Positions 11,715-36,110 of a stretch of 38,998 nucleotides of DNA are shown in pieces (positions within the stretch are counted from its first letter, which is position 1; each line of letters opens with the position of its first letter). The DNA lies in contig JAHFUS010000040.1 of NCBI GenBank assembly GCA_023264975.1, forward strand, positions 1 through 38,998, written 5' to 3'. The stretch is from Actinomycetes bacterium. GTDB lineage: Bacteria > Actinomycetota > Acidimicrobiia > Acidimicrobiales > GCA-2861595. Under the pieces are notes generated by a model. That model saw only the letters and a list, made by a program, of their open reading frames with translations. It made no database searches and had not been told where the DNA came from. The position numbers and the translations under genes are program-made.

Positions 11715-12317
11715 TCAAACAAAGCCATACCGCTCGGCGACGTCGGACTCCAGGCGGGCGCTCACCTCGGTGACGACCTGGGGGAAGTCGAGGAATGCTG
11801 TCGCGAAGGGGATGGTCTCCCCGACCTCGGTGAGCCGCCACCCCGGCTCCTGGTGCGAAAGCTCGCTGACCTGCGTGCCCGTCATGCCCTCGAGCTGTTC
11901 GAGCACGTCGCCGACGCTGGCCAGCTCTACCTCGGTAAACAGGCTCATGACAGCGGGCCGCCGGGGCACGAGGCGCTGCTGCGGACGCCCCAGGAAGTCC
12001 TCCTCGACCAGCTCGGCCTCACCCGCGGCGAGCAGCCGCCGGCGGACCGGGAGGAGCTGGCGAGGCGCGGGGCCGTGCGGCAGCTTCTGGAACTCACAGC
12101 CCGAGATGACGGCGTGGTGGCGGCGCAGGTGGGTGAACTCGGCGAAGAACAGCACCTTGTTGAGCTTGGTGGCCCCGCCGGCCCGATCACCCCGGAGCCT
12201 GTCGGCCACGTAGACCAGCAACTCGGTGAACTTGGCCTCGTCGTAGTGAACGTCCACGGCCCCGATGCTACGAGGGGGGTGTGACATTTCGGCGGAGCCC
12301 CCTCCCGCCTGGCTCAT
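11715..12317 (-). CDS. Panacea-domain (SocA-like, DUF4065) protein
   Basis: This is a 200-residue protein. KFTELLVYVADRL, TKLNKVLFFAEF and FQKLPHGPAPRQLLPVRR are characteristic of the Panacea/DUF4065 family, whose members include the SocA antitoxin and many antitoxins paired with unrelated toxins. The chosen ATG overlaps the drmMI stop (ATGA) and has AGGAG 8 nt upstream. ATG at 12287 and GTG at 12257 are possible alternatives. It lies inside the DISARM operon, in the same direction, and is followed by a small unknown gene. This suggests either an embedded toxin-antitoxin unit guarding the operon or an accessory regulator. Its exact role here is unknown. Confidence 0.8.
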   Translation of the reverse strand: MSQAGGGSAEMSHPPRSIGAVDVHYDEAKFTELLVYVADRLRGDRAGGATKLNKVLFFAEFTHLRRHHAVISGCEFQKLPHGPAPRQLLPVRRRLLAAGEAELVEEDFLGRPQQRLVPRRPAVMSLFTEVELASVGDVLEQLEGMTGTQVSELSHQEPGWRLTEVGETIPFATAFLDFPQVVTEVSARLESDVAERYGFV

Positions 12318-15300
12318 AGGAGCGACTCCTGGCCGCCGCCGCCCTTGGCCGAGCGCCTCGCCGGCGCCTTCTTGGCCTTCTTGGCGTGGAGGCCTGCCGC
12401 CACCTCCGCCGCGTACCGCTCGTGGTTCAGCTCCAACAGCCGGTCGAGGAGCTCGTCCTTGGCCGCGGGGCTCACGGTGAACCGCATGCCCTGCGGCGTG
12501 TCCCAGTGGTGGTGGTCGAGCCCCAGGTCGCTCCACCCGTAGGCGTCCCGCACCGCGTGGTCGAGGACGACGTGCAACTCCCGCAGGCGGACGATGTCGA
12601 GATGCTGCTCGTCGGGATTGTGGACCCGGTTGTAGGTCTTGGTGAGCCCGAGATTGGTCCGGATCATCAGGTCAGCCCGAAACTCGTTGAGCTCCCGGCC
12701 GGCGGCGTCGATCGCCTCCCACCTCGGCCCCGCCTGCGGCTCGGGCTGCGCAAACGCCTCGAACACGTCCGACGGCGTGTAGCGGAGATTGCCGAGTCCA
12801 CCCAGTGTTGACGATCGCGTGGCTGCCCACCACCAGTGGAAACCACTCGACAGCAACCCGAAACTTGCATCGTCGGTGTACGCGAGACATACGGTCGCGT
12901 CCGAATAGACCGTGCCACAGGCGACGAACTGCACCTGAACAGTGGGAGTGTGGCGAGTCAAGACCAGCACTCGCTCGAAGTCAGCTATCGCGGCGTACAT
13001 CTCGGTACGGGGACGCCAGAACTGCCACCACCTCTCGGCCCACCCCGGGTAGCCAGTCTTCCCGTGGATCTCGTCGCGGACCCGTCGCTCGAGCTCTTTG
13101 AACGGCCCCGGGTACCGCTCCGCTCGCTCGGCGGGCCAGTCGGCGAAGTCGATGACCCACCGGCTCGCTTCCTGGGTGGGGTGGTCGTTCAGGTCCTGAC
13201 CGTTCAGGTATGGCTTGACCACGTCACGGCTGGACGGCTCGGCCGTCCTCAGGGCAGCAGCCTCGTTCGGGGACAAGATGAACGCCGGAGAGGCGAGGAT
13301 GCAACCCTGGAAGGAGCGATTCGCATTGACGGCGAGCCTCTCGGGCAGCCCCGCGACACGCCGCATCGCGTCAAGGGCGGTGTCGATGCCCGGCACGGGA
13401 GCGCTGCCCAGAACGGTCGACCCTGTCCACCTCGCCGACCACAGCCAGACCTTGGCGATCTCCAGATTGGCCTCGTTGGGCCAGGGCTCAGACTTCACGG
13501 CGCGATGGATCGTCCACCCGACGGACGTCAACCGATCCAGCCCGACCTCCCGTGTGTCGCCCTGGCTGATGGTGTTCGTGGCCAAGGTGCCCACCGAGCC
13601 GGACAGCTCGCACATCCGCAGCAGGAAGTAGGTGACCAGGTCGGCGTTGCCGGTTACGCCAGTGGCGATGGCCGCGACCAGGTGCTCCCGGTAGGCCACG
13701 CCATTCGCCCCGGAGATGCGCTTGCCACCCAAAAACGGCGGGTTGGCGACGATGGCGTCGAAGCCAGTCCGGCCCTCGGTCAGGAATACCTCAGGGAACG
13801 CCAGCGGCCAATGCAGGCATTGGCGGTCCCACGGCATCGGGGGTTCGTCGGGGAGGTCGGTGCGCAACCACCCGGTCGAGACGCCGTGGAGCACGGCCAA
13901 TGCCGCCTCCCGCTCGATGGCCGCCCGGTCGTCGTCGAGGGCGGTGCGGATGCGCTCCAGTTGCACGTCGAGTCTCGCCTCGACCGAGCCGCCACGCTTG
14001 CCCGCCGTGCTCAGCGCCGCACCGACGACCGCGTCGGCCACTACGGACAGGTCGGCCAGCCTGCCTCGCAGCTCCTCATGGAGCCGTTGCTTCTCGGCGG
14101 CGTCGCGCACCGTGACCACCGACAGCTCCTGGAGCCGGCGCGCCAGGTCGGAGGCCTCCTTGATGCGGATGTCGAGGGCCAGCGTGGTGAAACGTGCGGC
14201 GCCCTTGCGCTCGGCGGGGTCGAGGTGGAGCCAGCGGAGCTGCTCCATGTCGGTGATGCCGAGCAGGGAGTCGCCGACCTGGATGGCGTGGTCGAGGAAG
14301 GTGAAGGGCCTTTCCTTGGCCATGGTGGTGAGCCACAGAGAGAGCTTGGCCATCTCGGCCGCCACCGGGTTCTTGTCGACGCCGTAGAGGCAGTGGTCGA
14401 CCACCTCGCGCCGGGCCAGCACGGTCTGCTCATCGGCCGGGGCGGCGGCCAGGTCGGCCAACCGGCCGGCGAACGGACCCTGGCCCGGGCCGTGCTCGAC
14501 GACGGACTCGAGCAGGCGGTCGGCCAGGTACCGGCCGGCGGCGGTGAGGATGGCTCCGGAGCCCACCGCCGGGTCGCAGGTGCGCAGGTCGAGGATCTCC
14601 GCCGGGGTGCGAAGCTGCCAGCGCTCAGGGTCGGCCTCATTCTGGGGGCCGGGCTCATAGACCAGGGGCTCCAGGGCGTAGCGGACCACCTCTTCGGCCA
14701 AGGCTCTGGTGGTGTACTGCGCGCCCGTGTTGCGGCGGGTCGACGTCTGGGTGACGAACATCGACCCGGGCAGGATCACGACCGGGAGGCCGCGCAGGTC
14801 GGGCCGGATCAGGCCCCAGAAACCCAGCACCCGGGCAACGGTGTCATCGTCGTGCCCGCACGCCACCCGCAGGCGGGCCAACTCGACCCCCTCGGGCTGC
14901 CGGCCCAGCTCCTTCGTCAGCGCCGACGCCGTCTTGTTGCAACGCTCCTTGGCCGCCAGCCACTCGCACAGGGTGCCAGCGGCAGCGTGGCGTTCGAGGT
15001 CGGCGATCGAGATCTCGGGTTCGGCGCCCTCGGGGCCGACGAGCCCAAGGGCCAGGACATCGACCCGAGAGCAGCCGTGGTCGAGCAGACCCTCGTAACA
15101 GTGGCCGATCTGCTCGACGTCGAGGGCCTTGTAGCTGACCCGCTGGGCCACCGTCGACCGACCGGAGCGCACCTCGACCGTCAGTAGGGCGTCGAGGATG
15201 GCCAGCACCGTGCGGTCGTCAACGGCCACCGGACGGCCCGTCCCGAGAGCTGCATCGGCGGTCGGGTGACGGCGGCCTTCGAGGAAGGGGAACCGGTCGG

Positions 15301-16405
15301 GGTCGAACAGGCTCCCCCCGTAGGCGGGCAGGGTGAGGCGGTCGTGGTTGGCGCCGCCGTGCACGGCCCGGAAAGTGGCGAGGAGCCGGTGCCACGCCGT
15401 GGACCGTCGCTCGAGGGCGTCCTCGCCGTCGCGGGCGGCCGACACCCGCAGGTCGTCGCGCAAGCTGAGGACGGAGTAGGACTCGGCCCACAGTTGGTCC
15501 TCGGCGGGCAGGAGCCGGCGTTCCTCAGCGAACAGCAGGAACACCAGGCGCATGAGCACGGTGACGGCCGACTCGTAGACCTCGGTGGCGGCGACGTCGC
15601 CGAGCACCCCGCCGTGGTTGGCGACGTCATCCCGGGAGATGGCGGCCACCAGTAGCTCCACCGATCGCCGCACCGACCGCCCGAGGCCCTTGGTGATCTC
15701 GGCCTCGGCGTCGGCAGCCCGTTCGAACAGCCGCTCCAGCGTCTGGCCGGCCTCGACGGCGAAGAACCGGCGGGCGCCGAGCAGGGACACGAGGCCGGCC
15801 TGGAGGATGCGCTCGTCGGCCAGGTCGGCGAGCCGCCACCGGCACGAGGCCGCCGGCGCGCCCCTGGGCGCCCATACGAGTACCCACTGGTCGTCGTCGG
15901 TCACGACCGCAAGGGGCACGCCACCTTCCCGGCACCAGGTCTCGGCGCGCTGCACGGGGCTGGCCGGCCAGGTGTCGCCGGCCACCGCAATATCGGGCCG
16001 CCGGTCGAGGCGGGTGCCGAGCGGCCAGGCGAAGAGGCCGACGCGCACACTGGAAGGGTCATCGCCGTCGAGCAGGGCCTGGGCCGGCCGCAGCGTCACC
16101 CCCGGCTCGGCCGCCCGAACCACGGCTGTGGCGGGGATCCGCTGGTCCGAGGCCAGCAGGTCGCTCCACTCCAGCGCGTCGGCCAGCAGCCACCGGCGCA
16201 GGTCGGCATGGGCCATCGGGTCGCCGTCGAGGGATGCGACCCGGGCGCGCAGATCGGTGCGCAGCTCGGCGGGCATCGGGTCGAAGCCGTGGGGGAAGGT
16301 GGCGGTCAGCTCGGTGGTGGTGAGGAACGCTCCGTCGGGGTCGACGAGGTTCAGCCAGTCACCCAGGGCGGCCTTGGGATTGGCCTGCGGGCCGCGCCCT
16401 CTCAC
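12314..16405 (-). CDS. drmMI: DISARM N6-adenine methyltransferase DrmMI
   Basis: This is about 1363 residues. The SAM-binding motif DPAVGSGAILTAAG lies near residue 610 and the catalytic motif IV ANPPFLGGK near 886, as in large Eco57I/PglX-like adenine methylases. The C-terminal region holds the target-recognition part. The start is a GTG that overlaps the drmD stop (GTGA). The continuous frame through drmD to this gene exists only because drmD carries a frameshift, and the arginine-rich stretch upstream of this GTG is out-of-frame translation. DrmMI marks host DNA so that DISARM spares it. Part of the recognition region (about 12780-13560) is markedly lower in GC than the rest of the gene. 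The frame is intact. Confidence 0.92.
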   Translation of the reverse strand: MRGRGPQANPKAALGDWLNLVDPDGAFLTTTELTATFPHGFDPMPAELRTDLRARVASLDGDPMAHADLRRWLLADALEWSDLLASDQRIPATAVVRAAEPGVTLRPAQALLDGDDPSSVRVGLFAWPLGTRLDRRPDIAVAGDTWPASPVQRAETWCREGGVPLAVVTDDDQWVLVWAPRGAPAASCRWRLADLADERILQAGLVSLLGARRFFAVEAGQTLERLFERAADAEAEITKGLGRSVRRSVELLVAAISRDDVANHGGVLGDVAATEVYESAVTVLMRLVFLLFAEERRLLPAEDQLWAESYSVLSLRDDLRVSAARDGEDALERRSTAWHRLLATFRAVHGGANHDRLTLPAYGGSLFDPDRFPFLEGRRHPTADAALGTGRPVAVDDRTVLAILDALLTVEVRSGRSTVAQRVSYKALDVEQIGHCYEGLLDHGCSRVDVLALGLVGPEGAEPEISIADLERHAAAGTLCEWLAAKERCNKTASALTKELGRQPEGVELARLRVACGHDDDTVARVLGFWGLIRPDLRGLPVVILPGSMFVTQTSTRRNTGAQYTTRALAEEVVRYALEPLVYEPGPQNEADPERWQLRTPAEILDLRTCDPAVGSGAILTAAGRYLADRLLESVVEHGPGQGPFAGRLADLAAAPADEQTVLARREVVDHCLYGVDKNPVAAEMAKLSLWLTTMAKERPFTFLDHAIQVGDSLLGITDMEQLRWLHLDPAERKGAARFTTLALDIRIKEASDLARRLQELSVVTVRDAAEKQRLHEELRGRLADLSVVADAVVGAALSTAGKRGGSVEARLDVQLERIRTALDDDRAAIEREAALAVLHGVSTGWLRTDLPDEPPMPWDRQCLHWPLAFPEVFLTEGRTGFDAIVANPPFLGGKRISGANGVAYREHLVAAIATGVTGNADLVTYFLLRMCELSGSVGTLATNTISQGDTREVGLDRLTSVGWTIHRAVKSEPWPNEANLEIAKVWLWSARWTGSTVLGSAPVPGIDTALDAMRRVAGLPERLAVNANRSFQGCILASPAFILSPNEAAALRTAEPSSRDVVKPYLNGQDLNDHPTQEASRWVIDFADWPAERAERYPGPFKELERRVRDEIHGKTGYPGWAERWWQFWRPRTEMYAAIADFERVLVLTRHTPTVQVQFVACGTVYSDATVCLAYTDDASFGLLSSGFHWWWAATRSSTLGGLGNLRYTPSDVFEAFAQPEPQAGPRWEAIDAAGRELNEFRADLMIRTNLGLTKTYNRVHNPDEQHLDIVRLRELHVVLDHAVRDAYGWSDLGLDHHHWDTPQGMRFTVSPAAKDELLDRLLELNHERYAAEVAAGLHAKKAKKAPARRSAKGGGGQESLL

Positions 16406-19400
16406 GCCGGTTCCTCGGGGACGAGGATGGTCACGGCAGCCGGGAAGATGTGGCTCTCGGGGTCGGTGAAGCGCCGGCGGACGGCGGCCACCTCGCGCTC
16501 GATCTCGTCGGGGATCTCGCCGAGGCGCCGGCGCAGGGCGTCGAGGTCGCGCTGGGACTGCTCCCGTTCGGGCTCGTTGAACAGGGTGAGCTGCTCGGCG
16601 CGCTCGGCGTCCAGCCGGTCGAGGTCGGCGGTGATCTGGGCGGCGAAGCTCGTCCAGCACGGTGCGGATGGCCTCGGCCTCGGCCTCGGCCCGCTCGGCC
16701 AACTCCCGCTGCTTCGACTCCTGGACAGCCTCGGACCGGCGCTCCAGTGCCCGGGCCAGACCCGGCTCGACCACCCGGTCCCACCACTGGACGACCTCGT
16801 CTGTGCCCTGGGCCCCGTAGGGGACCCCGCCGGCGGACCGCAGGAGGGCATCGAGGTCACGCAACGTGTCGATCCGGGCGAAGCGCCCGGCCCGCAACCG
16901 GCCGCCGGCGACGACCAGCTCCTCGTGGAGGCGGTGCCCGTCGGCCCCGGTGATCACCAAGCGGGCGTGGCAGACCAGGCCGACGTCGCCGATCTCCAGC
17001 ACCTCGGCCCTCGGTGGGACCGTGCGAGCGGTCACCCGCGCCAGGTGCTGGCGGGCGCCCGTGGCCCAGACCTCCGAGCGCAACAGGCGCAGGGACTGGG
17101 CCACGAGGCGGTGGCCGAGGTGGCAGAAGACCACGTCGTCGCGTCCCTCCGCGCTCTTGCCGTCGAACGTGAAGGGCAGTTCGTCGCCCGAGAGGCGGTC
17201 GACCATCCCCTCCGACGTCCGCTGCCACGACCCGCTGAGCGGGGGCAGGCGGAACTCGCCGGCCGCGGCGGTGGGGACGAGCGCCGGCTGGTTGGCCACG
17301 TCGAGGGCGGTGGCGACCACCCGCTCCAGGCGTTGCGGCGTCAGGTCGAGGTCCTTGATCGACTCCTGGAGCCGCTCGTGGCAACGGGCCAGGCCCTCCC
17401 GGAGCTTGCGTTCGACCTGGAGCACCTTTGTGGCGGGCCGGCTGCGGGCCCGGTCGATGGAGTCGTCATCGATGGTGGTGCGCCGGCCGAGCATGGCGTC
17501 GCCCACCTGGTCGGCCAGCACGGCGCCGACCGAGCCGAGGTCGTCACGGATCTGCTCGACCTTGAACGCCACCTTCGAGAGGAACCCGAGCTCGGTGGCG
17601 AACGCGGACGCGTCGTCCTCCCAACCCTTGGGGACGAAGTGGCGAATCTCCACGAAGGGGTGTGGCTGGCCGTGGCGGTCGACCCGGCCGTTGCGCTGCT
17701 CCAGCCGGGACGGGTTCCACGGGATCTCCCAGTGGAGCATCCGCCAGCAGTGCCGCTGGAGGTCGATTCCCTCCGAGGCGGCGTCGGTGGCCACCAGGAT
17801 CCGCACCGGCGACCGGGACGGATGGGCCTGGAACTCGGCCTTGGTGCGCTCCCGGTCGTCGGAGTCCATGCCGCCGTGGATGGTGGCGATCCGCTCGCCC
17901 CCGTCGCCGCCGAAACCGTTGGTGAGGAGGAGGTCGACCAGCCACTTCTGGGTGTCCCGGTACTCGGTGAAGACGATGACCCGCTCGTCGTTCCAGGCGC
18001 CTCCCGGGGCGCGGCAGGTGGCGTCGAGCCACGCGAGGAGCACGTCGGCCCGCGCGTCGCGGCGGTGGCGGCGCGCCTCGACCCAGCTACCGAGGCGGTC
18101 GAGGATGTCCTTCTCTTCGGCGGTGAGCGGCTCCTGGCCCCGTGACGCCGTCGTCAGCACCTCGGCCACGACCTCGCCGGACTCGTCGTCGACCGCCTCG
18201 TCGCTGCTGCGGTCCCAGGCTGCCTGCATCTGCGCCTCGCTGGTGGGCGCTTGCCTCGTCGAGTGGTGGCGGTCGAGTGTGGTGCGGTGCTGGGCGAGCG
18301 TGTTGGCGAAGGCGACCGGCGACGACAGCAGGCGCTTCTTCAGCAGCAGCGTCACGAAGTCGGCGGCCGAGCGCTTTGATCCCTGGTCGTGGTGAGACCG
18401 GCGCAGATCGGCATAGCGCTCCAGCAGCGCGTGCGCATCCCGCTCGTCGGCCGGGTAGTCGACCGCCATCGCCTCCACCCGGCGAACCGGGAAGCGGGGA
18501 GTGCCGTCGGGGTTGGGAGGAAGCTCCTCACGCAGCTCCCGCTTGAGCCGGCGCACCAGCACCCGCGCCAGCTGCTCGGGGTTCGGAGGGATGTTTCGTT
18601 GGAAGCGCTGGGGGTCGAGGAGCTCGAGAAGGGCACCGAAGCTCTCCGGGTACCCGTTGTGGGGTGTGGCCGACAGGAAGAGGCGGTGCTCGCAGTGGGG
18701 GGCCAGGCGTTGAATCGCCCTGGTGCGCAGGGAGTCGACGGCGTAGCGTCCCCGGCCCGACGGCGCCGCCGAGTGGACCTCGTCGACGATCAGCAGGTCA
18801 AAGGTGCGAGGCGCCCGCCGGTGGTCGACCCCCGACAGCACCTCGTCGAGGAGGGACTGCGCCCGGCGGTCCTTGAGCCAGTCGATCGACACGATCAGTC
18901 GGGGGAACGAGGTGAACAGGTTGGCACCGACGCCGCGGTCCCGGCGAAGTTGCCGTACGGCGTCGGTGTTGATGATCCGGAACTCCAGGCCGAAGCGGTC
19001 GCGCATCTCCTCCTGCCACTTCACGCACAGGCCGGCGGGGCACACGACGAGCACCGTGCGGGCGCGGTGGCGCAGGAGGAGCTCCTGGACCACCAGACCG
19101 GCCTCGATCGTCTTGCCGAGACCGACGTCGTCGGCGATCAGCAAGTTGGCCCTCGGCATGCTCAGGGCCCGGACGACCGGGTCGAGCTGGTAGTCCTCGA
19201 TGGTGATGCCCGACCGGAACGGGGCCTGGAGGGCCCTGGAGTCGGCCGTCGCCACCGCCCCCCATCGGACGGCGTCGAGGAACGCCTCCAGCCGCTCCGG
19301 GGGATCGAGCCGGCCGGCGTGCGGCCTCGGCAGTTCCTGGTGCGGGATCACCTGGGTGCCCGACTCGAGCTCCCAGATCACCGCCAGCTCATCGCCGAAG

Positions 19401-19603
19401 CCGTCGTCCTCGAGCGACGACATGCGCACCAGATGCTGCGGGCGGGTTCCCGCGATCGGGTCGGGCGGGAGGGAAGACGGCGCGACCTCGTTGACCGCCC
19501 AGATCCGGTCGCGGCAGCGCACGACCTGGCCCAACTCGGGAACACCGATCTCCGCCGCTACGGCCGTCGTGCCTCCCAAGTGCTCAGGTCCTCCCGGCAA
19601 CAA
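16402..19603 (-). CDS. drmD: DISARM SNF2-like helicase DrmD, one frame break
   Basis: Restored, this is about 1067 residues. Visible motifs are Walker A DDVGLGKTIEAG (about 158-169), DEVH at 274-277, LSATPHNG near 310, FTEYRDTQKWL near 545, ATDAASEGIDLQ near 605 and EQRNGRVDRHGQ at 635-646, a full SNF2/superfamily 2 set. DrmD defines class 1 DISARM. Near 16647-16651 the frame shifts: after TVLDEL the true continuation is FAAQITADLDRLDAERAEQL in another frame, ending VPEEPA and TGA. One base must be removed or two added. All helicase motifs precede the break, so a truncated protein would lack only the last 80 or so residues. The start is uncertain: TTG at 19603 is the longest option, and a GGGAGG lies just inside it. 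Confidence 0.9.
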
Positions 19604-25950: not shown

Positions 25951-26154
25951 ATGAACACCCCTGATCGACGGGCCGAGATCCACGACCGGCTGGTGGACGC
26001 CGTGGAGGCGATGGTGTCCGGAGCCGACTGGCAGCGGCTGTTGGACCTGGGACGGCGTTTCCACGCCTACTGGACCGGCGTAAGTGGCATATCCGAACTG
26101 TGTGAATGCAGTCGCCGACATCAGGCGGAGGGCTGGGAAGCATTGGTGAGGTAG
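25951..26154 (+). pseudogene. ArdC-like antirestriction protein, N-terminal fragment
   Basis: From an ATG with GAGGAG upstream, the first 41 residues (MNTPDRRAEIHDRLVDAVEA ... LLDLGRRFHAY) match the start of the ArdC-like ssDNA-binding domain found on actinobacterial plasmids and integrative elements. After FHAY (about 26072) family proteins continue with SxxNxxLI, but here the frame runs 26 unrelated codons to a stop. The rest of the gene, including the expected metallopeptidase part, is absent. The break marks the left edge of an inserted or substituted segment that carries the permease, crcB and the recombinase operon. Confidence 0.65.
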
Positions 26155-26219
26155 GCCGTTTCCAGCGTGACCACCTGCTGACCGAGGCAACACGCTGGCG
26201 ACGCCCGGGCTGGACGACC

Positions 26220-26993
26220 ATGGTGGGGGCCATGCTGACTTGGCCCACCGCCGTCCTGGCCGGCTGCTGTATCGGTCTTCTGATGGGCTTTTTCGGCGTG
26301 GGGGGTTCGTCGGTGGCCACCCCTGTTCTGTCGCTTCTCGGCGTCCCACCCTTGCTGGCGGTTGCGTCCCCGCTCCCGGCCACGATCCCCGCCGCGATGT
26401 TGGCCGCTTCCTCGTATGTCCGGAGGGGCGAAGCCCGACCACGCGCCGCTGCTTGGTCATTGCTCGGGGGCGTCCCGAGCACGATCGCAGGCGCTTTCGC
26501 GTCGCGATGGGTCGGTGGCCGGGCACTGTTGGTCACCTCTGGACTTGTGCTGGTCGTCGTCGGGGCCCGGGTTCTGCGCCCGGTCGACGAAGCTGCACGA
26601 GCCGCCGGGAACCGGCGAAGACTGAACCGGCCGGTGCTGGTAGCCGCCGCTGGTGGCGTTGGATTCTTCACCGGGCTACTCGCCAACGGGGGAGGCTTCC
26701 TGCTCGTTCCGCTCTACGTGCTGGTCTTCGGCCTTCGCATGCGACAAGCAGTTGGCACCAGCCTGGTGGTCGTGGCCGGTCTCTCCGTGCCGACGCTCGG
26801 TGTCCACTGGGCACTCGGCCATATCGACTGGGCCGTAGCCGTCCCCTTCGCAGCGGGCGTCCTGCCCGCCAGCCTCGGCGGCAGCGTTTTGGCCCAGCGC
26901 ATCCATGGTCCGGCCCTCCGACGAGCCTTCGGCTTGTTCCTCGTCGCCTTCGGCCTGTGCTTCACCCTCCTGCGTCTTGTCGGCGTGGCCTGA
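26220..26993 (+). CDS. TauE/SafE-family (TSUP) membrane permease
   Basis: This is a 257-residue integral membrane protein with about eight hydrophobic segments in two halves, each starting with a glycine-rich motif: LLMGFFGVGGSSVATPVL near the N-terminus and GFFTGLLANGGGFLLVPLYV in the middle. This duplicated GxGGG pattern is typical of the TSUP/TauE-SafE family, which exports sulfite, sulfoacetate or related anions. The substrate here is unknown. The start is ATG 26220 or 26232; no strong ribosome-binding site decides it. It converges on crcB with a small hairpin between them. As cargo beside a fluoride exporter it may belong to an anion-resistance pair. Confidence 0.85.
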   Translation: MVGAMLTWPTAVLAGCCIGLLMGFFGVGGSSVATPVLSLLGVPPLLAVASPLPATIPAAMLAASSYVRRGEARPRAAAWSLLGGVPSTIAGAFASRWVGGRALLVTSGLVLVVVGARVLRPVDEAARAAGNRRRLNRPVLVAAAGGVGFFTGLLANGGGFLLVPLYVLVFGLRMRQAVGTSLVVVAGLSVPTLGVHWALGHIDWAVAVPFAAGVLPASLGGSVLAQRIHGPALRRAFGLFLVAFGLCFTLLRLVGVA

Positions 26994-27005
26994 CAAGTGA
27001 GGCGC

Positions 27006-27031
27006 AAGCTTTCGGGAAAGACCGAGAGCTT
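27006..27031. terminator. Hairpin between convergent genes
   Basis: AAGCTTTCGG and CCGAGAGCTT pair at 9 of 10 positions around a 6-nt loop, between the stops of the permease (+) and crcB (-). It is a likely two-way terminator. Confidence 0.5.
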
Positions 27032-27102
27032 CAGCGACGGGTCGAAGCCTCGAAGACCTGAGGATCGAACCCCCGTTGGCCTCGGCGAAGTTGAGGCGAG
27101 CA

Positions 27103-27465
27103 CTACACAATGGCCCGGCCGGCCGCGTATCCGAGGGCGGTGCCGGCGAGCCCGCCGACGACCGAAAGGGCGACGTAGCTGACCGCCGCCGCCGCCTGCC
27201 CCGTCCGCAGCAGTGTGAATGTCTCGTAGCCGAACGTCGAGAACGTGGTGTACGCGCCGAGCAGCCCCACTGCGACAGCGGTCGTGGCCGTAACCGGCCA
27301 GCGAGAGGCCCCGGGGCCGGCGAGCACGAGGGCGAGCACGAAGCAGCCGGAGACGTTGATTCCGAGCGTTGCCCACGGAAACGAGCGCATCCCGACTGCA
27401 ACACCGATTCGGTAGCGAATGACAGCGCCGATCGCTCCGGCGATCGCCACCATGAGAGTGGGCAT
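27103..27465 (-). CDS. crcB: Fluoride exporter CrcB/Fluc
   Basis: This is a 120-residue, four-helix membrane protein. GAIGAVIRYRIG at the N-terminus, GINVSGCFVLALV, and TTFSTFGYETF in the third segment are the conserved Fluc motifs. The two phenylalanines and the asparagine region line the fluoride path in this family. Fluc proteins are dual-topology dimers, so one gene can suffice. GAGGAG lies 7 nt before the ATG. A fluoride riboswitch lies directly upstream on the same strand, which supports both the function and fluoride-inducible expression. Confidence 0.93.
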   Translation of the reverse strand: MPTLMVAIAGAIGAVIRYRIGVAVGMRSFPWATLGINVSGCFVLALVLAGPGASRWPVTATTAVAVGLLGAYTTFSTFGYETFTLLRTGQAAAAVSYVALSVVGGLAGTALGYAAGRAIV

Positions 27466-27484
27466 GCCGCGACTCCTCTCAGAT

Positions 27485-27539
27485 CGTAGGAGCCATCAGC
27501 CCACCGCGGGCGGTTTGGGGCGAGCCCCATCGCCGCCCG
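27485..27539 (-). ncRNA. Fluoride riboswitch (crcB motif)
   Basis: Read on the minus strand, the sequence has the conserved core GGCGATGGGGCTCGCC, then AAACCGCC, and the 3' GCTGATGGCTCCTAC that defines the fluoride riboswitch pseudoknot. It ends about 20 nt before the crcB start codon, so it can control translation or transcription into crcB when fluoride binds. Order and spacing match the known family. Confidence 0.93.
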
Positions 27540-27773
27540 ACAGCGTAAACGAGCCCTTTGGGCAGGGTGGAGCTAGAAACTCCGACACGGAGGGTCAGCG
27601 GCCCAGTCGAGCGGCGCTGACGTGATATTCGTTCCGCTGCTCCTCTTGGCAAGGGTGGGTTGGACGCTCTACTCGTCGGCGGTCCGCCCGGGGCGGCAGG
27701 CGCGATGCAACCGGTTGCCGGCCGTCAGGGAAGGCCGAGAGTCACCCCGCCCAGAGCGACGCCGGGCCTTGCG

Positions 27774-30158
27774 TCAGCGGTCGTCCAGGTCGGCCGGGTA
27801 GGCCATCCAGCTGCCACCACTCATCGCTGCCCAACGGGTGGCGGTATTGGCGTTGACACCGATGATCTCGCCCAGCATGGCCGGCGGGATCTCGCCCGCC
27901 AGCTGGGCCCGGGCGCTGTTGCGCATCAAGAGCGGCTCGATCCCGATAGCCCGCAGGCGCTCCCCGAGGATGACCGGCCCACAGTGGTGACCAGCGTGAC
28001 GGCCCGGGAACAGCCAGGGCGTGTCGAGCTGGTCGGACACGCCATTGCTGCGCCGGTGCGGGAGGAGGCCGATGAGGGTCGAGAACGGCTCGTGGATGGG
28101 AACGGGGTTGCCGGCCAAGTCGACGATGACGGTGCCGTCGAAGCTGCGATGGATGTCGCTCGACTTGAGCACGGCCACCCGGGCGAGGGGCTGGGCGTAG
28201 AGGACGACCAGGGCGCCGGCGACGCGGATGTCGACGCTGATGGTGTCGTCGCTCACCAGGCGTCGGGCGACGACCCAGCGTTGCTCGGCGTCGATGACCG
28301 GGCGCAGGGCCTGGGGTGGCGACGCGGGGACGGCCACGCCTTTGGCCAGATGCGAGCGTGCGGTGGCCCACACCAGGAACGGCCGGGCCAGCCAGCGGAT
28401 GGAGCCGCCGGCCCCAAACCAGCTGTCGAAGTCGACCTGGGTGCAGGTTCGCAACGTCCGGCCTTGGCCATGGACGCTGCCGAGGAGCAGGACAACCTGG
28501 CGAACGGAGCGACGTGCGTTGTTGGCGCTGTGCGCCATCGTCTTGCCGGCCTCGTCGCGGGCGCGAAGTCGGGGCAGGACCTGCCAGCGCAACCAGGCCC
28601 GCACCACGCTGCGGTCGGTGCTGTCGTCGATGAGCTCGACCTGCTCGCCGGCGAAGACCTCGAAGCGGTTGATGCTGCGGTCCTCGGCGGGCAAGGCGGC
28701 GACGGCGACCAGCAGCGAGCGCAGGTGCATGACGCTGTGATCAGCGCCGAAGGCGTCGAGGGCGGTGTGCGTGAGGGCCGTCTCGCCGGCGGCGACGCTG
28801 GCGAGGACCTTTCCGGCCGCGCTGTCGCGCAGCCAGCTGCGCACCTGGGTCGGGTTGTCGGCAGCCAGGATGGCGTCGCGCAGGACCACCAGCGGGGCCG
28901 CAAGCGCATCGGCCGGGCCCAGATGGCTGTCCAGGTCGACGGCCAGGGCGCAACGCTGGCAAACCCACCGTCCCAGTACCCAGGTGCGCGGCGCCTGGAT
29001 GTCGCATGCAGCACAGCGTCGCTCGACGCGTTCGCGACAGCCCCGGCACCGGCCGTTGGCGTCGCGGGGCCGATCCACCCGCCCGCAGTCGCCGCAGGTC
29101 CCGCGTGGCCCGCGCTCGCACCGGCCGCACCACGGCTTGGTCGGCTCCTTGGTTGTGCCGCCGCAGCCAGGGCAGCTTCTGGCACACGGCATGCACCGGA
29201 CCACGGAGCGATACGTCACCAACGGCTGCGCCGCCTCGCCGCAGTCGGTGCAGGTGGCGGCGGGTAGCACCGCCCCGGCCACGCGCAATGCGTCGAGGAG
29301 ACGCGCCACCGGGGCCAGGCGGTGGACACCGGCTGACAGCGGGGGGCCGGCTGCGAGCTGGCGGGCGATGAGGGCCCGCGCCGGCACGTTCGGGGCCAGC
29401 TTGTCGAGCACAGCCCCGATGTCGACGACGGCCACTGCGGGGTCGGCCCGGTGGACCACCCCGGCGATCTCGGCGGCGAGCTCGGCCAGGCGCCGCAGGC
29501 GCCGCTCGTGCTGCATGCAGCGCTCGCACACCGGGCGCCCGTCGGCGTCGCGATGGTTGACGCAGCGGGGCCGGGCGCACACCGAGCACGACTCCCGGTG
29601 CACGCGTGCCCAACACGACCCGCACTCCCCACCGGCGCCGACCCGGGCGTGCCAGCGGCGTTGTCGACCGCAGCGGCTGCAGATCGGGTCGATGGTGGCG
29701 ATGCGCGTCGAGCCGGCCGCCGCCAGGGCGATCGTGAAGCGGTCGACGACGGCCACGTTGCTGGTCGGCCCGATCGAGAACACCTCCGGGTGGGCGTCGA
29801 GGTGATCGGCGAGGCGGCGCAGGGTGGTCCTGGCACCGGCCGTTGCTTCCAGCGCCGCTTCGACCACCTCGGTGCCGAGCGATGGGTCGGCCTCGCCCAC
29901 CACGGCGATGATCCGCCAGCGGCGGGCGGCGTCGAGGGCTGCGCCTCGGTGGCTCAGTTTGCAGGGGACGCACCAGGCCAGCCCGTCGGGATCGCGACCG
30001 GCCACCCGGCGGTGCACACCGCAGTGCGCGCAGGTGGCCCGGTTGGCGGAAGTCATGCACGTGGCACAGATCCGACCCTGCGGACTTCGCCCCCACGGAC
30101 GCGCCGGCCGGCCACAGCGGGCGCACGGTGGCAGGTCCGCCCGGGGGGCGTCGGTCAC
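27774..30158 (-). CDS. Zinc-ribbon XerD-like protein of the recombinase operon
   Basis: This is a 794-residue protein. The first 420 or so residues contain at least sixteen CxxC pairs (for example CARC, CATC, CAHC, CSRC, CPGC, CAAC), an unusually dense series of zinc ribbons. The C-terminal 200 residues resemble a tyrosine-recombinase catalytic fold (AGALVVLYAQPLARVAVLKSSDI, then LRAIGIEPLLMRNSARAQLA and LGEIIGVNANTATRWAAM). The HxxR box is RNSAR-like and no clear nucleophilic tyrosine context is seen, so it may be a non-catalytic partner. Related proteins are annotated as recombinase XerD in actinobacteria. The GTG start overlaps the HTH gene stop (GTGA). It probably binds DNA at the element's recombination sites; this is inference. 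Confidence 0.7.
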   Translation of the reverse strand: MTDAPRADLPPCARCGRPARPWGRSPQGRICATCMTSANRATCAHCGVHRRVAGRDPDGLAWCVPCKLSHRGAALDAARRWRIIAVVGEADPSLGTEVVEAALEATAGARTTLRRLADHLDAHPEVFSIGPTSNVAVVDRFTIALAAAGSTRIATIDPICSRCGRQRRWHARVGAGGECGSCWARVHRESCSVCARPRCVNHRDADGRPVCERCMQHERRLRRLAELAAEIAGVVHRADPAVAVVDIGAVLDKLAPNVPARALIARQLAAGPPLSAGVHRLAPVARLLDALRVAGAVLPAATCTDCGEAAQPLVTYRSVVRCMPCARSCPGCGGTTKEPTKPWCGRCERGPRGTCGDCGRVDRPRDANGRCRGCRERVERRCAACDIQAPRTWVLGRWVCQRCALAVDLDSHLGPADALAAPLVVLRDAILAADNPTQVRSWLRDSAAGKVLASVAAGETALTHTALDAFGADHSVMHLRSLLVAVAALPAEDRSINRFEVFAGEQVELIDDSTDRSVVRAWLRWQVLPRLRARDEAGKTMAHSANNARRSVRQVVLLLGSVHGQGRTLRTCTQVDFDSWFGAGGSIRWLARPFLVWATARSHLAKGVAVPASPPQALRPVIDAEQRWVVARRLVSDDTISVDIRVAGALVVLYAQPLARVAVLKSSDIHRSFDGTVIVDLAGNPVPIHEPFSTLIGLLPHRRSNGVSDQLDTPWLFPGRHAGHHCGPVILGERLRAIGIEPLLMRNSARAQLAGEIPPAMLGEIIGVNANTATRWAAMSGGSWMAYPADLDDR

Positions 30159-30490
30159 GGCTTGGTGATCTCGGCCCGTCTCGGCCGGCGCTCCTTGAGC
30201 GACGAAACGGCCGCCTCACCGACGACGCCGGCTGCCGCCCGCTTCGTGCGGCTCTCCGTCACCGGCTCGATCAGGTCATTGGGGGTGCAGTCGAAGATGT
30301 CGCACAGGGCCATCAGCGTGCGCAGGCTCAAACGCTCCGGCATCTGGGTCACCAGCCGGTAGACCTGGGTGGACGACAACACCACGCCCCGCTCGGCCAG
30401 CAGCGGCACGAGATCGGTGGTGGCGAACATGGCGTGGCGGGCCATGACAAGTCGCAGGTTCCATTGGTAGGCGAGCTTTGCCCTTGCCAT
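30155..30490 (-). CDS. Xre-type helix-turn-helix regulator of the recombinase operon
   Basis: This is a 111-residue protein. Residues about 8-78 form a Cro/C1-type HTH: LVMARHAMFATTDLVPLLAE, then LSSTQVYRLVTQMPERLSL and TLMALCDIFDCTPNDLIEP, the YozG-like pattern. A basic tail follows. It starts 11 nt after the recombinase stop with GAGGAGG upstream, and its stop overlaps the zinc-ribbon gene. The order recombinase, HTH, zinc-ribbon protein points to one operon, with this protein as repressor or directionality factor. Confidence 0.85.
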   Translation of the reverse strand: MARAKLAYQWNLRLVMARHAMFATTDLVPLLAERGVVLSSTQVYRLVTQMPERLSLRTLMALCDIFDCTPNDLIEPVTESRTKRAAAGVVGEAAVSSLKERRPRRAEITKP

Positions 30491-30501
30491 CGTCGTCCTC
30501 C

Positions 30502-31635
30502 TCAGCGGTCCTCGGCGCCGGCGGCGCCGTCGGGTTGGTCGAACGCCGGACGCAGAGCCCGGGCCAGGGCGGCCTGCAGGTAGTCGCTGCCCACCTTGGT
30601 GTAGCCCGCCGTCGACGAGCCCCACCGGTGGCCGACCTGTTGCTGCACGAACAGCTGGTCGACACCGTCCTCGAGCTGGTGGGTGATGAACGAGTGCCGC
30701 AGGCAGTGCGGAGACAACGCCGCGTCCAAGCCGATGGCGTCGCGGTAGTCGGCGAAGCGGGCGTTGATGGCGCTCGACGCCACCCGGCTCCCACGCTCGG
30801 TGGGCCACAGCATCCCGGCCCTGCCGGTGGCGTAGGCGGGGCGGATCTCGCCAACCCACTCGGCCATCGCCTGAGACGCCCAGCCCATGACCGTGAGCAC
30901 GGTGCGCTGGCGGGGTGGGCCGCCCCGGCTGGCCTTGCCGTAGCGGACGTTCAGCACGCCGAAGCGCCCGAACTGCGGTGCTCGGGCGTTGGGGCCCCAG
31001 TCGGCCAGATCGAGCATGGCCGCCTCCCGCCGCCGCAGGCCCCACGCGTAGATGGTCTTGAACAACACCGCGTCGCGGTAAGCGGCCAGCCATCCTTTGC
31101 GGCCGCGGCCGGCGATGCGAGCCACCTGCTCATCTGCGTGGTCGAAGAAGGCCTGCAGCTCGTCGCGGCTCATGGGCCGACGGTCCGGCCGGGCCTCGGT
31201 CTCGCCACGGTGCACGGCCGTGTTCCACTCGTGGAACACCTGGGTGGGATGGGTGCCGAAACGCTGCTCGCACACCGATGCCCAGCCGTAGCGGGGGTCG
31301 CAGACGTAGGCCAGGAACGACGCCACCGATGCCTGGTAGCCACGGATGGTCGAGTGCGCCAAACCGTCGGCCACCAGCGACGACGTCCACTCCTCGGCAT
31401 CCGCCGGTCCCCATGACCACGGGTAGTCGTTGGTGAAGGCCACGAAGCGCTGCAGCGTCCAGCCCCGATTCTCCACCGTGGCCGCCGTCAGGAGGCGGGA
31501 GCGCTGCTGGGCGGCCCAGCCCTCCTGCATGGCGGCGAGCACGGCGTCCTCCGGCTGCAGGAACGCCACGCCGGCGGCCAGCACTGTCGCCGCCGAGCCG
31601 GCCATCTCGATCGGGTCGATCTGTCTCGAACCCAT
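30502..31635 (-). CDS. Tyrosine recombinase
   Basis: This is a 377-residue protein with an N-terminal SAM-like core-binding domain (about 45-145) and a full catalytic set: arginine 201 or 202 in WGLRRREAAML, K234, H310 and R313 in HCLRHSF, H336 in VGHRWGS, and the nucleophile Y345 in TAGYTKVG. It should catalyse site-specific recombination. It is the first gene of a three-gene operon with the HTH and zinc-ribbon proteins, so it likely drives mobility of the cargo segment. The ATG at 31635 has only a weak GAGAGG upstream. A pair of 12-bp repeats lies just upstream. Confidence 0.92.
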   Translation of the reverse strand: MGSRQIDPIEMAGSAATVLAAGVAFLQPEDAVLAAMQEGWAAQQRSRLLTAATVENRGWTLQRFVAFTNDYPWSWGPADAEEWTSSLVADGLAHSTIRGYQASVASFLAYVCDPRYGWASVCEQRFGTHPTQVFHEWNTAVHRGETEARPDRRPMSRDELQAFFDHADEQVARIAGRGRKGWLAAYRDAVLFKTIYAWGLRRREAAMLDLADWGPNARAPQFGRFGVLNVRYGKASRGGPPRQRTVLTVMGWASQAMAEWVGEIRPAYATGRAGMLWPTERGSRVASSAINARFADYRDAIGLDAALSPHCLRHSFITHQLEDGVDQLFVQQQVGHRWGSSTAGYTKVGSDYLQAALARALRPAFDQPDGAAGAEDR

Positions 31636-31679
31636 GCAACCGGCCTCTCGGAACCTCGACAACGGACGCACCCTTCTTA

Positions 31680-31811
31680 CATCAGATGCAAGAGGCGACG
31701 GCGAATACCTGGTCAGCGGGCCAAACCCGACTCGCCGAGCGGCCCTCGGGAGATGCCAAATGATGCTCGTGACGCCCACCCCAATGCCTCCGAATCCTTC
31801 ATCGGATGCAA
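31680..31811 (+). repeat. Two CATC(A/G)GATGCAA repeats 120 bp apart
   Basis: CATCAGATGCAA starts at 31680 and CATCGGATGCAA at 31800, with similar flanks (CTT before, a GxCGA word after). The pair lies between the recombinase start and the broken end of the methylase-helicase gene. A shorter GATGCAA occurs at 27704-27710, beyond the other end of the operon. They are candidate recombination sites or regulator sites. Confidence 0.5.
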
Positions 31812-31824
31812 TAGCCGAGCCTGA

Positions 31825-34800
31825 TTGCACAACTACGCCATCGTGAAGAGCCTCGACCTCACCCGGGTCGGTGGCCTGGTGGCGGTGCTCACCTCGCGGT
31901 ACACGGCCGACGCCCGCAACCCGGCTGCCCGCCGGGAGATCGACTCGCGCGCCGACCTCATCGGCGCGCTGCGCTTCCCGGCCGGCGCCTTCTCCGCCGC
32001 CGCCGGCACCGACGTGGTGGCGGACCTGGTGGTCCTGCGCCGCCGGGGCGGGGGCGACGAGCGCCGGGGACTGTCGTGGGCGTCCACCGTCACCGTGCCC
32101 GGCGACGACGCCGGGAGCGGCGAGCCGGTCTACGTGAACGAGCTGTTCGCCACCCGCCCCGACCTGGTGCTCGGCCACCTCGGCGTCGACCGTGGCATGT
32201 ACCGCGAGCGCGAGCTGACGGTGACTGCCACCGGCGACCTGCTGCCGGCCCTGGTGCGGGCGCTCGCCGACCTCGTGGCAGACGCCCGCCGCCGCCACCT
32301 GACATTCACGCCGAGGCCGGCCACGGTTGTTGCTCCGGCACCGGCGACGGCCGCCACGCCGGCCCTGTCGCCGATGACCCAGGAGTCGAGCTTCGTGGTG
32401 GTCGACGGGACGTTCGGGCGCGTCGAGGCCGGTCGCGTCCGCCCTTACAGCCCTCGCTACCGCTCCGACGAGTCCGAACTGCGCCGCCTGGTGCGCCTGC
32501 GCGACGAGGCACGGGCGGTGCTGGCCGCCCAGGTGGCCGGAGCGGACGATGCCGAGGTGGACGGCGCCCAGGTCCGTCTGCGCGCCGCCTACGACACCTA
32601 CGCCCGCGCCCACGGCCCACTCAACCGCTTCCGCACCGCCCGCACCGGCCGGGTCGATCCCGACACCGGCGAGGAGATCCTGCGCCGCATCCAACCGCGG
32701 ATGGGGGGCTTCCGTGACGACCCGGACTGGCCGCTGGTGGCCGCCCTGGAGCACTTCGACGACGACACCCAGGTCGCCCGTCCGGCCGCCATCTTCACCC
32801 AGCGCGTCGTCTCGCCACCGCCGTTGCGCGTCGGTGTGGACACGGCCGCCGAGGCGGTCGCGGTGTGCCTCGACGAGGCCGGGCGCCTCGACCTCGACCG
32901 GATCGCCGAGCTGCTCGGCACCGAAACACCGGCGGCGCGGGCCGAGGTGGCCGGCCTGGCGTTCGACGACCCGACGTCACACGAACTGGTGCCGGCCAGC
33001 GCCTATCTGTCGGGCAACGTCCGCACCAAGTTGGCCGCCGCCCGGGCGGCGGCGGCCACCGACACCCGCTACGAGGCCAACGTCGCCGCTCTCGACGAGG
33101 TGTTGCCCCGCCAACTCGAGCCGGGTGAGATCACCGCCGGCCTGGCGCCCCGTGGATCCCGCCGGCCGACGTCGAGGCGTTCTGCGCCGACGTCCTCGGC
33201 GCCGAGGTTGAGGTCGAGCGCCTGGCCGCCCTCGGGTCGTGGACAGTTCGGCTGCACTCGGGCGGGCGGGGTTCGGTGCGCCTGTCGTCGGAGTGGGGGA
33301 CGGCACGCGCCGATGCCATCGTGCTGCTCGACGCCGGCCTGAACCAGCGCCTCTACACCGTCTACGACGAGGACGCCGACGGCCGCCGCGTGCGCAACGA
33401 CGCCGAGACCCTGGCCGCCAGGGACAAGCAGGAGGCCGTCGCCGTGCGGTTCTCGGCGTGGGTGTGGGAGGAGCCGGCGCGGGCGGCCAGGCTGGCCGAG
33501 CGCTACAACGAGTTGTTCCGCAGCGTGGTGGTGCCGGCGCATGACGGCTCCCACCTCAGCCTTCCGGGGCTGGCCGACACCTTCACCCCCCATCCCCACC
33601 AGCGCGACGCGGTGGCCCGCATCCTCACCGACGGCCGGGCGCTGCTGGCGCACGCCGTGGGCGCCGGCAAGACGGCCACGATGATCATGTCCACCATGGA
33701 GTTGCGCCGCCTGGGTCTCGCCGCCAAGCCGGCCGTGGTGGTGCCCAACCACATGCTGGAGCAGTTCAGCCGTGAGTGGTTGCAGCTGTACCCGACGGCC
33801 AGGCTGCTCATCGCCGACCGGGACCGCCTGTCCCGCGAACGCCGCAAGGAGTTCGTGGCCCGCTGCGCCACCGGCGACTGGGACGGGGTGGTGTTCACCC
33901 ACGCCGGGTTCGCCCGCATCCCGCTCGGCCCGGACCTGTACAAGCGCTACCTCGAGGAGAACCTGGAGCGGTGCCGGGCGGCCCTGGCCGAATCCCGAGC
34001 CGGCAAGGGCCTGTCGGTCAAGCGCCTGGAGCGCCGCCTGGCCCAGCGGGAGGAGAGGCTGCGCGAGCTGCTGGCCGCCGAGACCAAGGACGACGGCGTG
34101 AGCTGGGTCGAGACCGGGATCGACCGGGTCACGATCGACGAGGCCCACTGCTTCAAGAACCGTCAGGTCGACTCGGCCATCGACGGCATCGCCACCCCCG
34201 GCTCGCGCCGGGCCCAGGACCTCGACGCCAAGCTGTGGGCCCTGCGCCGCATCCACGGCCCCCGGGTGGTCACCTTCGCCACCGCCACGCCGGTGGCCAA
34301 CTCCATCGCCGAGCTGTGGACCATGCAGTCCTACCTCCAGCCCGACGTCCTGGCCGAAGCCGACCTGTCCGCCTTCGACTCATGGGCGGCGACCTTCGCC
34401 CGCACCGTGACCGCCCTGGAGTTGGCGCCGGACGGGGGCAGCTACCGGATGAAGACCCGCTTCGCCCGCTTCCAGAACGTTCCCGAGCTGATCACGCTCT
34501 ACCGCCAGGTGGCCGACGTCCGCACGGCCGAGGACCTGGCTCTGCCCGTGCCGGCGCTCGGCGGAGGCCGCCCCGAGACGGTGGTCGTCCCCCCGTCGGT
34601 CGCCCTGCGCGCCTACGTCGCCGATCTGGCCTCCCGGGCCGAGCAGGTGCGCTCCCGATCGGTGCTACCGGACGAGGACAACATGTTGAAGATCACCGGC
34701 GACGGCCGCCGCGCCGCCCTCGACCTCCGCCTGGTCGGCGAGCGCCCCGATCCCACCGGCGGAAAGCTCGCTGCTGCCGCCGACCGCATCGCCGACATCC

Positions 34801-36110
34801 ACCGCTCGACCACCGGCCTTCGCTTCGTCGACGAATGTGGTCAACCGCATCCGAGGCCGGGCGCCCTTCAGCTGGTGTTCTGCGACGTCTCCACGCCTTC
34901 AGGGAGGGCCTGGAACGCCTACGACGAGCTGCGCGGCCTGCTCGTCGCGCGGGGCATGCCGGCAGAAGCCGTGCGCTTTGTGCATGAGGCCGCCACCGAC
35001 GAAGGCAAAGCCCGGCTGTTCGCGGCTTGCCGAGACGGGCGCGTCGCTGTGCTGGTCGGCTCCACCGACAAGATGGGCGTCGGCACCAACGTCCAGACCC
35101 GCGCCGTTGCCCTGCACCATCTCGACTGCCCGTGGCGCCCGGCTGACATCGAGCAGCGTGAGGGCCGCATCATCCGCCAGGGAAACCAGAACGCCGAGGT
35201 GTCGATCTTGCGCTACGCCACCGAGGCAAGTTTCGACATCTACATGTGGCAGACGGTGGAGCGCAAGGCCGCCTTCATCAACCAGGTGGCCACCGGCCGC
35301 TCCGTCGAGCGGGAGGTCGACGACATCGGCGACCAGGCCCTGTCCTTCGCCGAGATCAAGGCTCTGGCCACCGGCAATCCGCTGATCCTGGAGAAGGCCG
35401 GCCTCGACGCCGAGGTCGCCCGCCTCAGCCGCCTGCACCGCTCGCACCAGGACGACCAGCACCGCCTTCGGCGCGCTCTGTCCTCGGCGGAGACGCGGGC
35501 GGCGCGGCTCGGCCGCAGGATCGCCGAACTGGAGGCTGCTATCACCCAGCGGACCGACACGCGGGGCGAGCGGTTCGAGATGACCCTCGAGGGCTCCGGC
35601 CATCGTTCACGATCCGACGCGGGCCAGCACCTGCTGCAAGTTCTGGCATCGCGGCTGGCGAGTCCCGGCGGCAGCGGCGCAATTGGCATCGGAAGGCTGG
35701 GGGGCTTTGATGTGGTCGTCGGTCTCGACCGAGAGGCAGGCGAACTCGTCGTGTCCCTCGACGGGCTTGACGACCCGGTGGCGATCCCGGCGGATGAGCT
35801 GCTCCGGACCGACCCCCTGGGCCTGCTCCGCCGCCTGGAGTACCGAATCCAGGCCGTCGACACCAGCCTGGCCGGCGCAATCGACGAGCACCGGTCCGCC
35901 AGTCGGGAGGCCGAGCGAGCCCGGGACCGCCTCGGCGCCTCGTTCCCCTACGACGACGCGCTCAAAGCTGCTCGGCGCCGCCAGCACGAAGTCAACGAGC
36001 AGCTTCTGCAGGGCGCCGGCGAGGTCAATGCCGAGCAGACCCTGCCCGACCGCATGATCTCCCGCATGGCCGGCGTCACCCCGTCACCAGCGGGGCCCGT
36101 GCGTCGCTGA
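31825..36110 (+). pseudogene. Large methylase-helicase (SNF2-like), 5' truncated with one frame break
   Basis: About 1428 residues remain. The sequence begins inside an N6-methylase-type domain (HNYAIVKSLDLTRVGGLVAVLTSRYTADA, after the position where family members have NPPF/NPPY), so the N-terminus with the SAM and catalytic motifs is lost. Near 33142-33149 one G appears to be missing: the frame changes between GEITAGL and APWIPPADVEAF. The helicase half follows, with Walker A HAVGAGKTATMI, DEAH in TIDEAHCFKN, a TATPVANS motif III, MGVGTNVQTRA and QREGRIIRQGNQN. A coiled C-terminal region ends at VRR. Such very large proteins are carried by plasmids and integrative elements and are thought to protect or remodel incoming DNA. 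The TTG at 31825 is only the first possible start. Confidence 0.75.

Follow-up and report, generated by a model that had tools for sequence, protein, structure and literature searches.

A probable Tsy-like integrative element with a catalytically degenerate TnsF-like protein in Actinomycetota

A three-gene operon related to Tsy

A three-gene operon in a 38,998-nucleotide stretch of an Acidimicrobiales genome (GenBank assembly GCA_023264975.1, contig JAHFUS010000040.1; the whole stretch is called the window) probably acts, by the mechanism proposed below, as transposition module for an integrative element of ~5.75 kb that resembles Tsy. The operon codes for a tyrosine recombinase (YRec), a small helix-turn-helix (HTH) protein and a TnsF-like protein. 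Tsy transposons (Faure et al. 2023, Mol Cell; PMC10293859), as described in the available part of that report, combine YRec, a small HTH protein and TnsF, whose N-terminal zinc fingers precede a C-terminal recombinase domain. Tsy was reconstituted and is inserted in comM, one branch carries a GIY-YIG gene that is absent from some relatives, removal of YRec, HTH protein or TnsF impairs transposition, circular intermediates are seen, and in ZooTsy catalysis by both YRec and TnsF is needed. The three open reading frames (ORFs) of the window all lie on the minus strand, with short or overlapping junctions in the ORF list:

30502..31635, minus strand: YRec, a tyrosine recombinase with a complete catalytic set (377 aa; PF00589, E 8e-16; R-K-H-R-H-Y)
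30155..30490, minus strand: small Cro/C1-type HTH protein (111 aa; PF13443, E 7.6e-14)
27774..30158, minus strand: TnsF-like protein, an array of 16 zinc-ribbon-like CxxC motifs followed by a catalytically degenerate tyrosine-recombinase fold (794 aa; assigned by fold, TnsF profile homology and missing residues)

A sequence-only reading of this region had proposed an operon of a full tyrosine recombinase, an Xre regulator and a 794-aa protein that joins a dense zinc-ribbon array to a degenerate recombinase-like C-terminus. The ORFs bear out the operon, and the recombinase is indeed complete, with R201, K234, H310, R313, H336 and Y345 kept in 15/15 aligned rows except for H336 (14/15). The array is as dense as described, with exactly 16 CxxC motifs in the 794-aa protein, which has no match in Pfam or NCBIfam. 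The recombinase-like C-terminus is likewise upheld by structure prediction. An AlphaFold model of residues 382–794 (mean pLDDT 91.3, pTM 0.80) places tyrosine recombinases in the top rows of Foldseek and VIA-align comparisons, led by XerH (Z 14.1, 267 residues, rmsd 5.2) and followed by Tn1549 Int (Z 13.1, rmsd 4.4) and Cre (Z 11.8, rmsd 5.5).

The canonical catalytic residues of this fold are largely missing. Counted over the 47 rows of alignment A4 (the 794-aa protein and 46 relatives), the first catalytic Arg is retained in 0/47 (A, S, T, V, N or F instead), the two His positions in 0/47, and the Tyr position in 0/47 (W in 43, H in 3, L in 1); the second Arg, R746, is retained in 47/47. By the canonical criterion the C-terminal domain is predicted to be catalytically dead. 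A tyrosine 11 residues past the canonical position, Y787, is invariant in 47/47 rows of A4 and in 24/24 of alignment A1, which raises the question of whether the third protein is also a second strand-exchange enzyme that uses the relocated Y787 together with R746. The invariance of both residues and the need of ZooTsy for catalysis by both proteins (PMC10293859) speak for this proposal; the loss of the first Arg and of both His in every row, with W, H or L at the canonical Tyr position, makes it unlikely.

The A1 profile of the third protein links it to TnsF. It matches TnsF-type proteins encoded beside TnsA/B/C in Acidovorax (E 1.9e-26) and Methylobacter (E 1.5e-18), as well as the corresponding protein of an Acinetobacter Tn6022-type element (E 1.8e-15); gene names in locus L211 are our reading of unannotated ORFs. 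The third protein of a Variovorax trio forms a link, matching both Acinetobacter (E 4e-26) and Rhodococcus (E 5e-10). Searched against PDB sequences, the third-protein profile gives only weak matches, mostly Cys-rich, with TniQ among them (E ~0.01). Because of the homology to TnsF the window module is classed as Tsy-like; strict membership in Tsy is not claimed because an active TnsF and a comM target were both looked for and neither was found. A simpler view of the operon as integrase, regulator and unrelated zinc protein was rejected once the third protein proved homologous to TnsF.

These features also bear on a different origin, in which an element of the SE or GInt type (two catalytic recombinases, a dead Tfp/GinC protein and a small protein) has lost one recombinase. 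SE and GInt do join active recombinase, catalytically dead recombinase-fold protein and small protein (PMC10214605, PMC5385486, available text), but each operon in the loci seen has a single catalytic recombinase, and the third protein carries zinc-ribbon motifs and is TnsF-homologous by profile. In the available text of PMC10214605, moreover, SE homologues are reported only from Gammaproteobacteria. Such an origin is very unlikely.

Linkage and distribution of the trio

A recombinase-alignment scan over genomes of 84,980 species yielded 344 relatives, 80 of which were kept as loci (numbered with the prefix L). At 77 of these 80 loci all three genes stand in one order and on one strand; the remaining three (L102, L132 and L145) stop at a contig end. 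The linkage of the trio, which the sequence-only reading had set as a check on its proposal, is far beyond chance. The third protein has homologues in 18 of 198 genomes belonging to the window's order and in 23 of 396 sampled from its phylum (the window's own genome counted), as well as in 245 plasmid records; genomes often hold partial copies of the third gene. A Variovorax plasmid carries a trio with a homologous third protein (E 7e-39), and more distant trios are found in Rhodococcus opacus 1CP and in Peribacillus plasmids (third protein E 2e-9 and 1e-8). On one Peribacillus plasmid (L209, 4506-7648) the same three-gene order follows a JAB-domain gene; we take JAB to be the RadC domain, presumably a known target of other elements. 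In the viral_contigs set a single-protein scan found no relative, and the recombinase-alignment scan found 11, one of them close.

Element ends and insertion at a catalytic tyrosine codon

Comparison of relatives defines the ends of these elements. Near-identical trios in different contexts diverge 170–190 bp before the recombinase start, which marks the left end. In the best sampled lineage, termed RELHQ for the residues encoded by its left end, the sequence is (R)ACC-CTCGGGAATTGCATCAG at the left end and ATTCGGACAGTTCCAATACCCGACTCCACC-ATTA at the right. Close to these ends TCGGGNATTG (left) and CAATNCCCGA (right) form an inverted pair; they stand 5 and 11 bp from their junctions, and this spacing suggests a 6-bp crossover. 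Cargo lies between the third gene and the right end, and the 37 listed end pairs span 3.6–7.9 kb (the left end of L112 being listed with two candidate right ends). A right end at the stop codon of the third gene was considered and rejected, as nested cases show that cargo can follow it. No SE-like 6-bp footprint was found at the right end, where the last bases are mostly ATTA or AGAG and do not match earlier left flanks.

Sixty distinct RELHQ left ends were collected, 48 with the module's recombinase downstream, 7 without it and 5 on stretches too short to tell. Thirty loci came from an unbiased pattern scan of 394 genomes from one family, 24 of which gave hits; with the pattern reversed as a control there were none. 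Upstream ORFs of at least 35 aa could be read for 47 of the 60 (11 of the other 13 were too short and 2 held ambiguous letters). PF00589 is matched at E 0.001 or better by 27 of these ORFs; 3 match 2'-5' RNA ligase, 1 matches an ISL3 transposase and 16 match none of these.

For 31 elements with both ends readable, the target frame was read on both sides, and in these 31 relatives, which belong to a lineage sister to that of the window, the frame resumes across the element. Twenty-four targets are tyrosine recombinase genes, cut one codon past the catalytic Tyr (for example ...LGHAHIGVTATVYA / HVRLRLQRDAIDLLG). The others are ISL3-transposase-like (L103, L106), recombinase-like in a shifted frame (L109) or of no readable class (L123, L126, L128), together with L002, whose target has no Pfam match but looks, by a motif, like an IS3 transposase. 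The six target bases at the left junction begin with TAY in 29/31. The interrupted gene retains its Tyr codon and receives its tail from the element, 31 codons long in 21 listed cases. Over 18 distinct tails of 31 codons the in-frame pN/pS is 0.76, compared with 0.92 and 1.24 for the two other frames, a difference too weak to indicate selection at the protein level.

Some targets belong to the family itself. In L190, L191 and L100 the element is inserted in the recombinase gene of another trio, and the rest of that gene, the HTH gene and the third gene follow. One genome holds four left ends (L160, L183, L188 and L187): three lie in recombinase genes that are readable and all different, the fourth at a contig edge. 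In L189, left ends at 1445 and 2644 lie 1199 bp apart, one element standing within another's recombinase gene, and the third gene that follows appears cut. Searches of the open-access literature listed no description of such an element inserting into tyrosine recombinase genes, or of ardC as a target; precise insertion at the codon for the active site in integrase genes of other mobile elements appears to be previously undescribed. Among the papers listed there only PMC10293859 has Tsy as its subject; its supplements, which lie outside this scope, may list actinobacterial members.

Other lineages and their targets

Left flanks of 92 loci, some very short and two empty, point to further targets. 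An antisense ardC gene occurs in nine of them, with the ArdC alignment starting at residue 46–51 or, twice, at 69, and the end of an M23-type peptidase gene occurs in 21. The peptidase genes, which end in H-x-DH-x-H, stand directly before the trios (L085, L086, L091, L093-L096, L098, L099, L101, L104, L105, L108, L114, L117, L118, L120, L122, L124, L130 and L138) and may be either a target or a part of the element.

In a recombinase tree of 88 rows the lineages match the targets, although some rows of the groups have no target label. The RELHQ group comprises 38 rows (support 100/100), the ardC-lineage group 19 rows, including the window and 8 of the 9 ardC labels (100/100), and the peptidase group 21 rows, 20 of them labelled (99/95). 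The window's sister is L068, at 71% identity (100/99). The L068 metagenome contig (1-4944) starts and stops at the two ends of its element, like a collapsed repeat or a circle.

A wider proposal is held tentatively, at somewhat short of even confidence. A large actinobacterial Tsy-like branch would live mainly on other mobile DNA, and its dead TnsF would let each lineage read one conserved codon stretch. In one lineage the stretch would be the codon for the active-site Tyr in tyrosine recombinase genes, also in those of the lineage's own relatives, and insertion there would leave the catalytic Tyr encoded and exchange only the tail. The protein would serve a simple site-specific integrase as a reprogrammable selector, its own chemistry lost or moved to a new tyrosine. 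If this is true, small integrative elements of one family are common in actinobacteria and have their target set by a separate protein with a catalytically degenerate recombinase fold, and the lineage that inserts at the active-site codon of integrases is a hyperparasite of mobile DNA. Catalysis by TnsF, which ZooTsy requires, would not be needed in general. The family would also offer natural target swaps with precisely readable ends (tyrosine recombinase genes, ardC, peptidase genes and IS transposases), and DNA selection by a dead recombinase would therefore be directly testable.

The element of the window

The window element spans ~26,074-31,823 and is delimited by the following features:

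31824..31829, minus strand: putative 6-bp crossover region TGCAAT, from the target gene (end-motif spacing in relatives)
31809..31823, minus strand: left end of the element, CAGGC + TCGGCTATTG (comparison with relatives)
31797..31811, minus strand: palindrome-like TTGCATCCGATGAAG at the left end
31677..31691, minus strand: second palindrome-like TTGCATCTGATGTAA, upstream of the recombinase start and 120 bp from the first
27103..27465, minus strand: cargo gene crcB, fluoride exporter family (PF02537, E 1e-23)
26106..26993, plus strand: cargo gene of the TauE/SafE exporter family, start codon uncertain (PF01925, E 2e-43)
26085..26107, minus strand: right-end motif ATTCACACAGTTCGGATATGCCA (1 mismatch to the motif of relatives; junction ~26,074)
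25951..26073, plus strand: right flank, 5' fragment of ardC, 42 aa (53% identical over 36 aa to the product of an intact ardC elsewhere in the genome)
31828..36110, plus strand: left flank, 3' portion of a methylase-helicase gene, spread over two frames (54% identical to a gene that is intact in Iamia; helicase domains)

Palindromes of the TTGCATC-N-GATG type recur at the left end and near the recombinase promoter. The core CATCNRATG was counted in the 78 loci whose 250-bp upstream stretch is complete: there are 59 occurrences, where mononucleotide shuffles predict 0.3. At least one is present in 41 of these loci and two are present in 18, with a median distance of 132 bp between the two. These palindromes are candidate sites for binding by YRec or the HTH protein.

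The two flanks come from different genes. The intact ArdC of the same genome matches PF08401; the 42-aa fragment by itself has no Pfam match. On the other side, the match to the Iamia methylase-helicase gene begins inside that gene, which on an Iamia plasmid runs intact across the window's left junction point (SLHNYFLIKSL). Such flanks would most simply arise if two copies in the same orientation, one in ardC and the other in the methylase-helicase gene, had recombined and the DNA between them had been lost. The methylase-helicase gene of the window is probably frameshifted as well as cut, since its two ORFs (31825-33342 and 33276-36110, plus strand) overlap in different frames.

The operon might be a domesticated or decayed remnant, kept for plasmid dimer resolution or regulation and no longer moving. 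The window copy is single, its flanks are mismatched and partial copies of the third gene are common elsewhere, as a remnant would predict; on the other hand the three ORFs and both end motifs of the window are intact, near-identical relatives stand in unrelated contexts, and one genome holds four left ends at different places. Domestication or decay of this kind is quite unlikely. Elsewhere in the window, positions 1-3000 have a G+C content of 0.615 against ~0.71 in the rest, and a 2429-aa ORF lies at 12314-19603 (minus strand).

Proposed mechanism

For movement and target selection we infer the following scheme. YRec would perform strand exchange, excise the element as a circle and join the circle to a target across a 6-bp crossover. 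The TnsF-like protein would act as a DNA-binding protein, built from zinc ribbons and a dead recombinase, that brings YRec to the target. The HTH protein may be an essential partner or a directionality or regulatory factor, possibly one that recognises the TTGCATC-N-GATGNA palindromes of the promoter and the left end. The HTH domain assigned in the sequence-only reading stands (PF13443), but the protein is probably more than a mere regulator and is better read as an essential component of transposition, as the available text on Tsy suggests (PMC10293859). The multi-protein recombination machine of that reading gains support from the linkage, the recombinase-like fold and the precision with which the two ends of relatives split target genes. 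Its suggestion that the mechanism is undescribed is not upheld, given that the same three-gene module was described and reconstituted as Tsy in 2023 (PMC10293859, available part) and the third protein is TnsF-homologous.

Several points weigh against a mobile Tsy-like element. First, the evidence for movement consists of genes, ends and flanks. The window copy may itself be immobile, since the third gene is present once in the genome and the flanks derive from two different genes, and its right end is placed by one motif (other matches in the window have 3-4 mismatches). Second, homology to TnsF was tested through the Tn6022-type TnsF, and the chemistry cannot be identical to that of ZooTsy because TnsF catalysis is essential there and the canonical residues are missing here. 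Third, a profile-profile comparison of the third protein (A4) with the recombinase (A2) is not significant (Prob 0.1%), so the kinship of the third protein with recombinases rests on its fold.

Comparison with known systems

Multi-gene tyrosine-recombinase modules are also found in Tn554, RIT and the gamma-mobile-trio. Tn554 and RIT have two or three active recombinases (table in PMC10214605, available text), and where RIT has three catalytic recombinases the present module has one catalytic and one degenerate recombinase with an HTH protein. The gamma-mobile-trio families GmtY and GmtZ of NCBIfam were listed and rejected, scoring 16.4 bits of 340 and 12.1 of 600 needed. SE and GInt share with this module an active recombinase, a dead recombinase-fold partner, a small protein, a cargo region and circular forms (PMC10214605, PMC5385486), but possess two active recombinases rather than one, and the available text on them mentions no zinc-finger array. 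The TnsF of Tn6022-type Tn7 elements is alike in profile and in having an inactivated recombinase domain after a zinc-finger array. It works, however, with TnsABC/TniQ in DDE transposition, whereas the present protein stands beside a catalytic tyrosine recombinase, and the window trio is flanked by target genes and cargo rather than by TnsA/B/C and TniQ (compare L212).

Tsy is the closest system. The operon order YRec - HTH - TnsF is that of the window and of 77/80 relatives, the third protein is TnsF-homologous (through the Tn6022-type TnsF) with a zinc-finger-type N-terminus of 16 CxxC motifs, cargo lies downstream of tnsF, and in both Tsy and the RELHQ lineage the 5' part of the split target gene stands upstream of YRec. 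In contrast to Tsy, as far as its available description goes, the host here belongs to Actinomycetota; TnsF is active in Tsy, whereas here the first R, both H and the Y are lost in 47/47 and the second R is kept; and comM is replaced as a target by ardC, methylase-helicase, tyrosine recombinase or, putatively, peptidase genes. No GIY-YIG gene was found in the window, where the Pfam-matched ORFs that separate the third gene from the right end encode CrcB and TauE/SafE. The ends here carry recognisable short inverted motifs, while none were detected in Tsy according to the same text. Already known from Tsy, in the available part of PMC10293859, is the architecture of YRec, HTH protein and zinc-finger/recombinase protein; new is a branch in actinobacteria whose TnsF is catalytically degenerate, whose ends are defined and whose targets differ by lineage.

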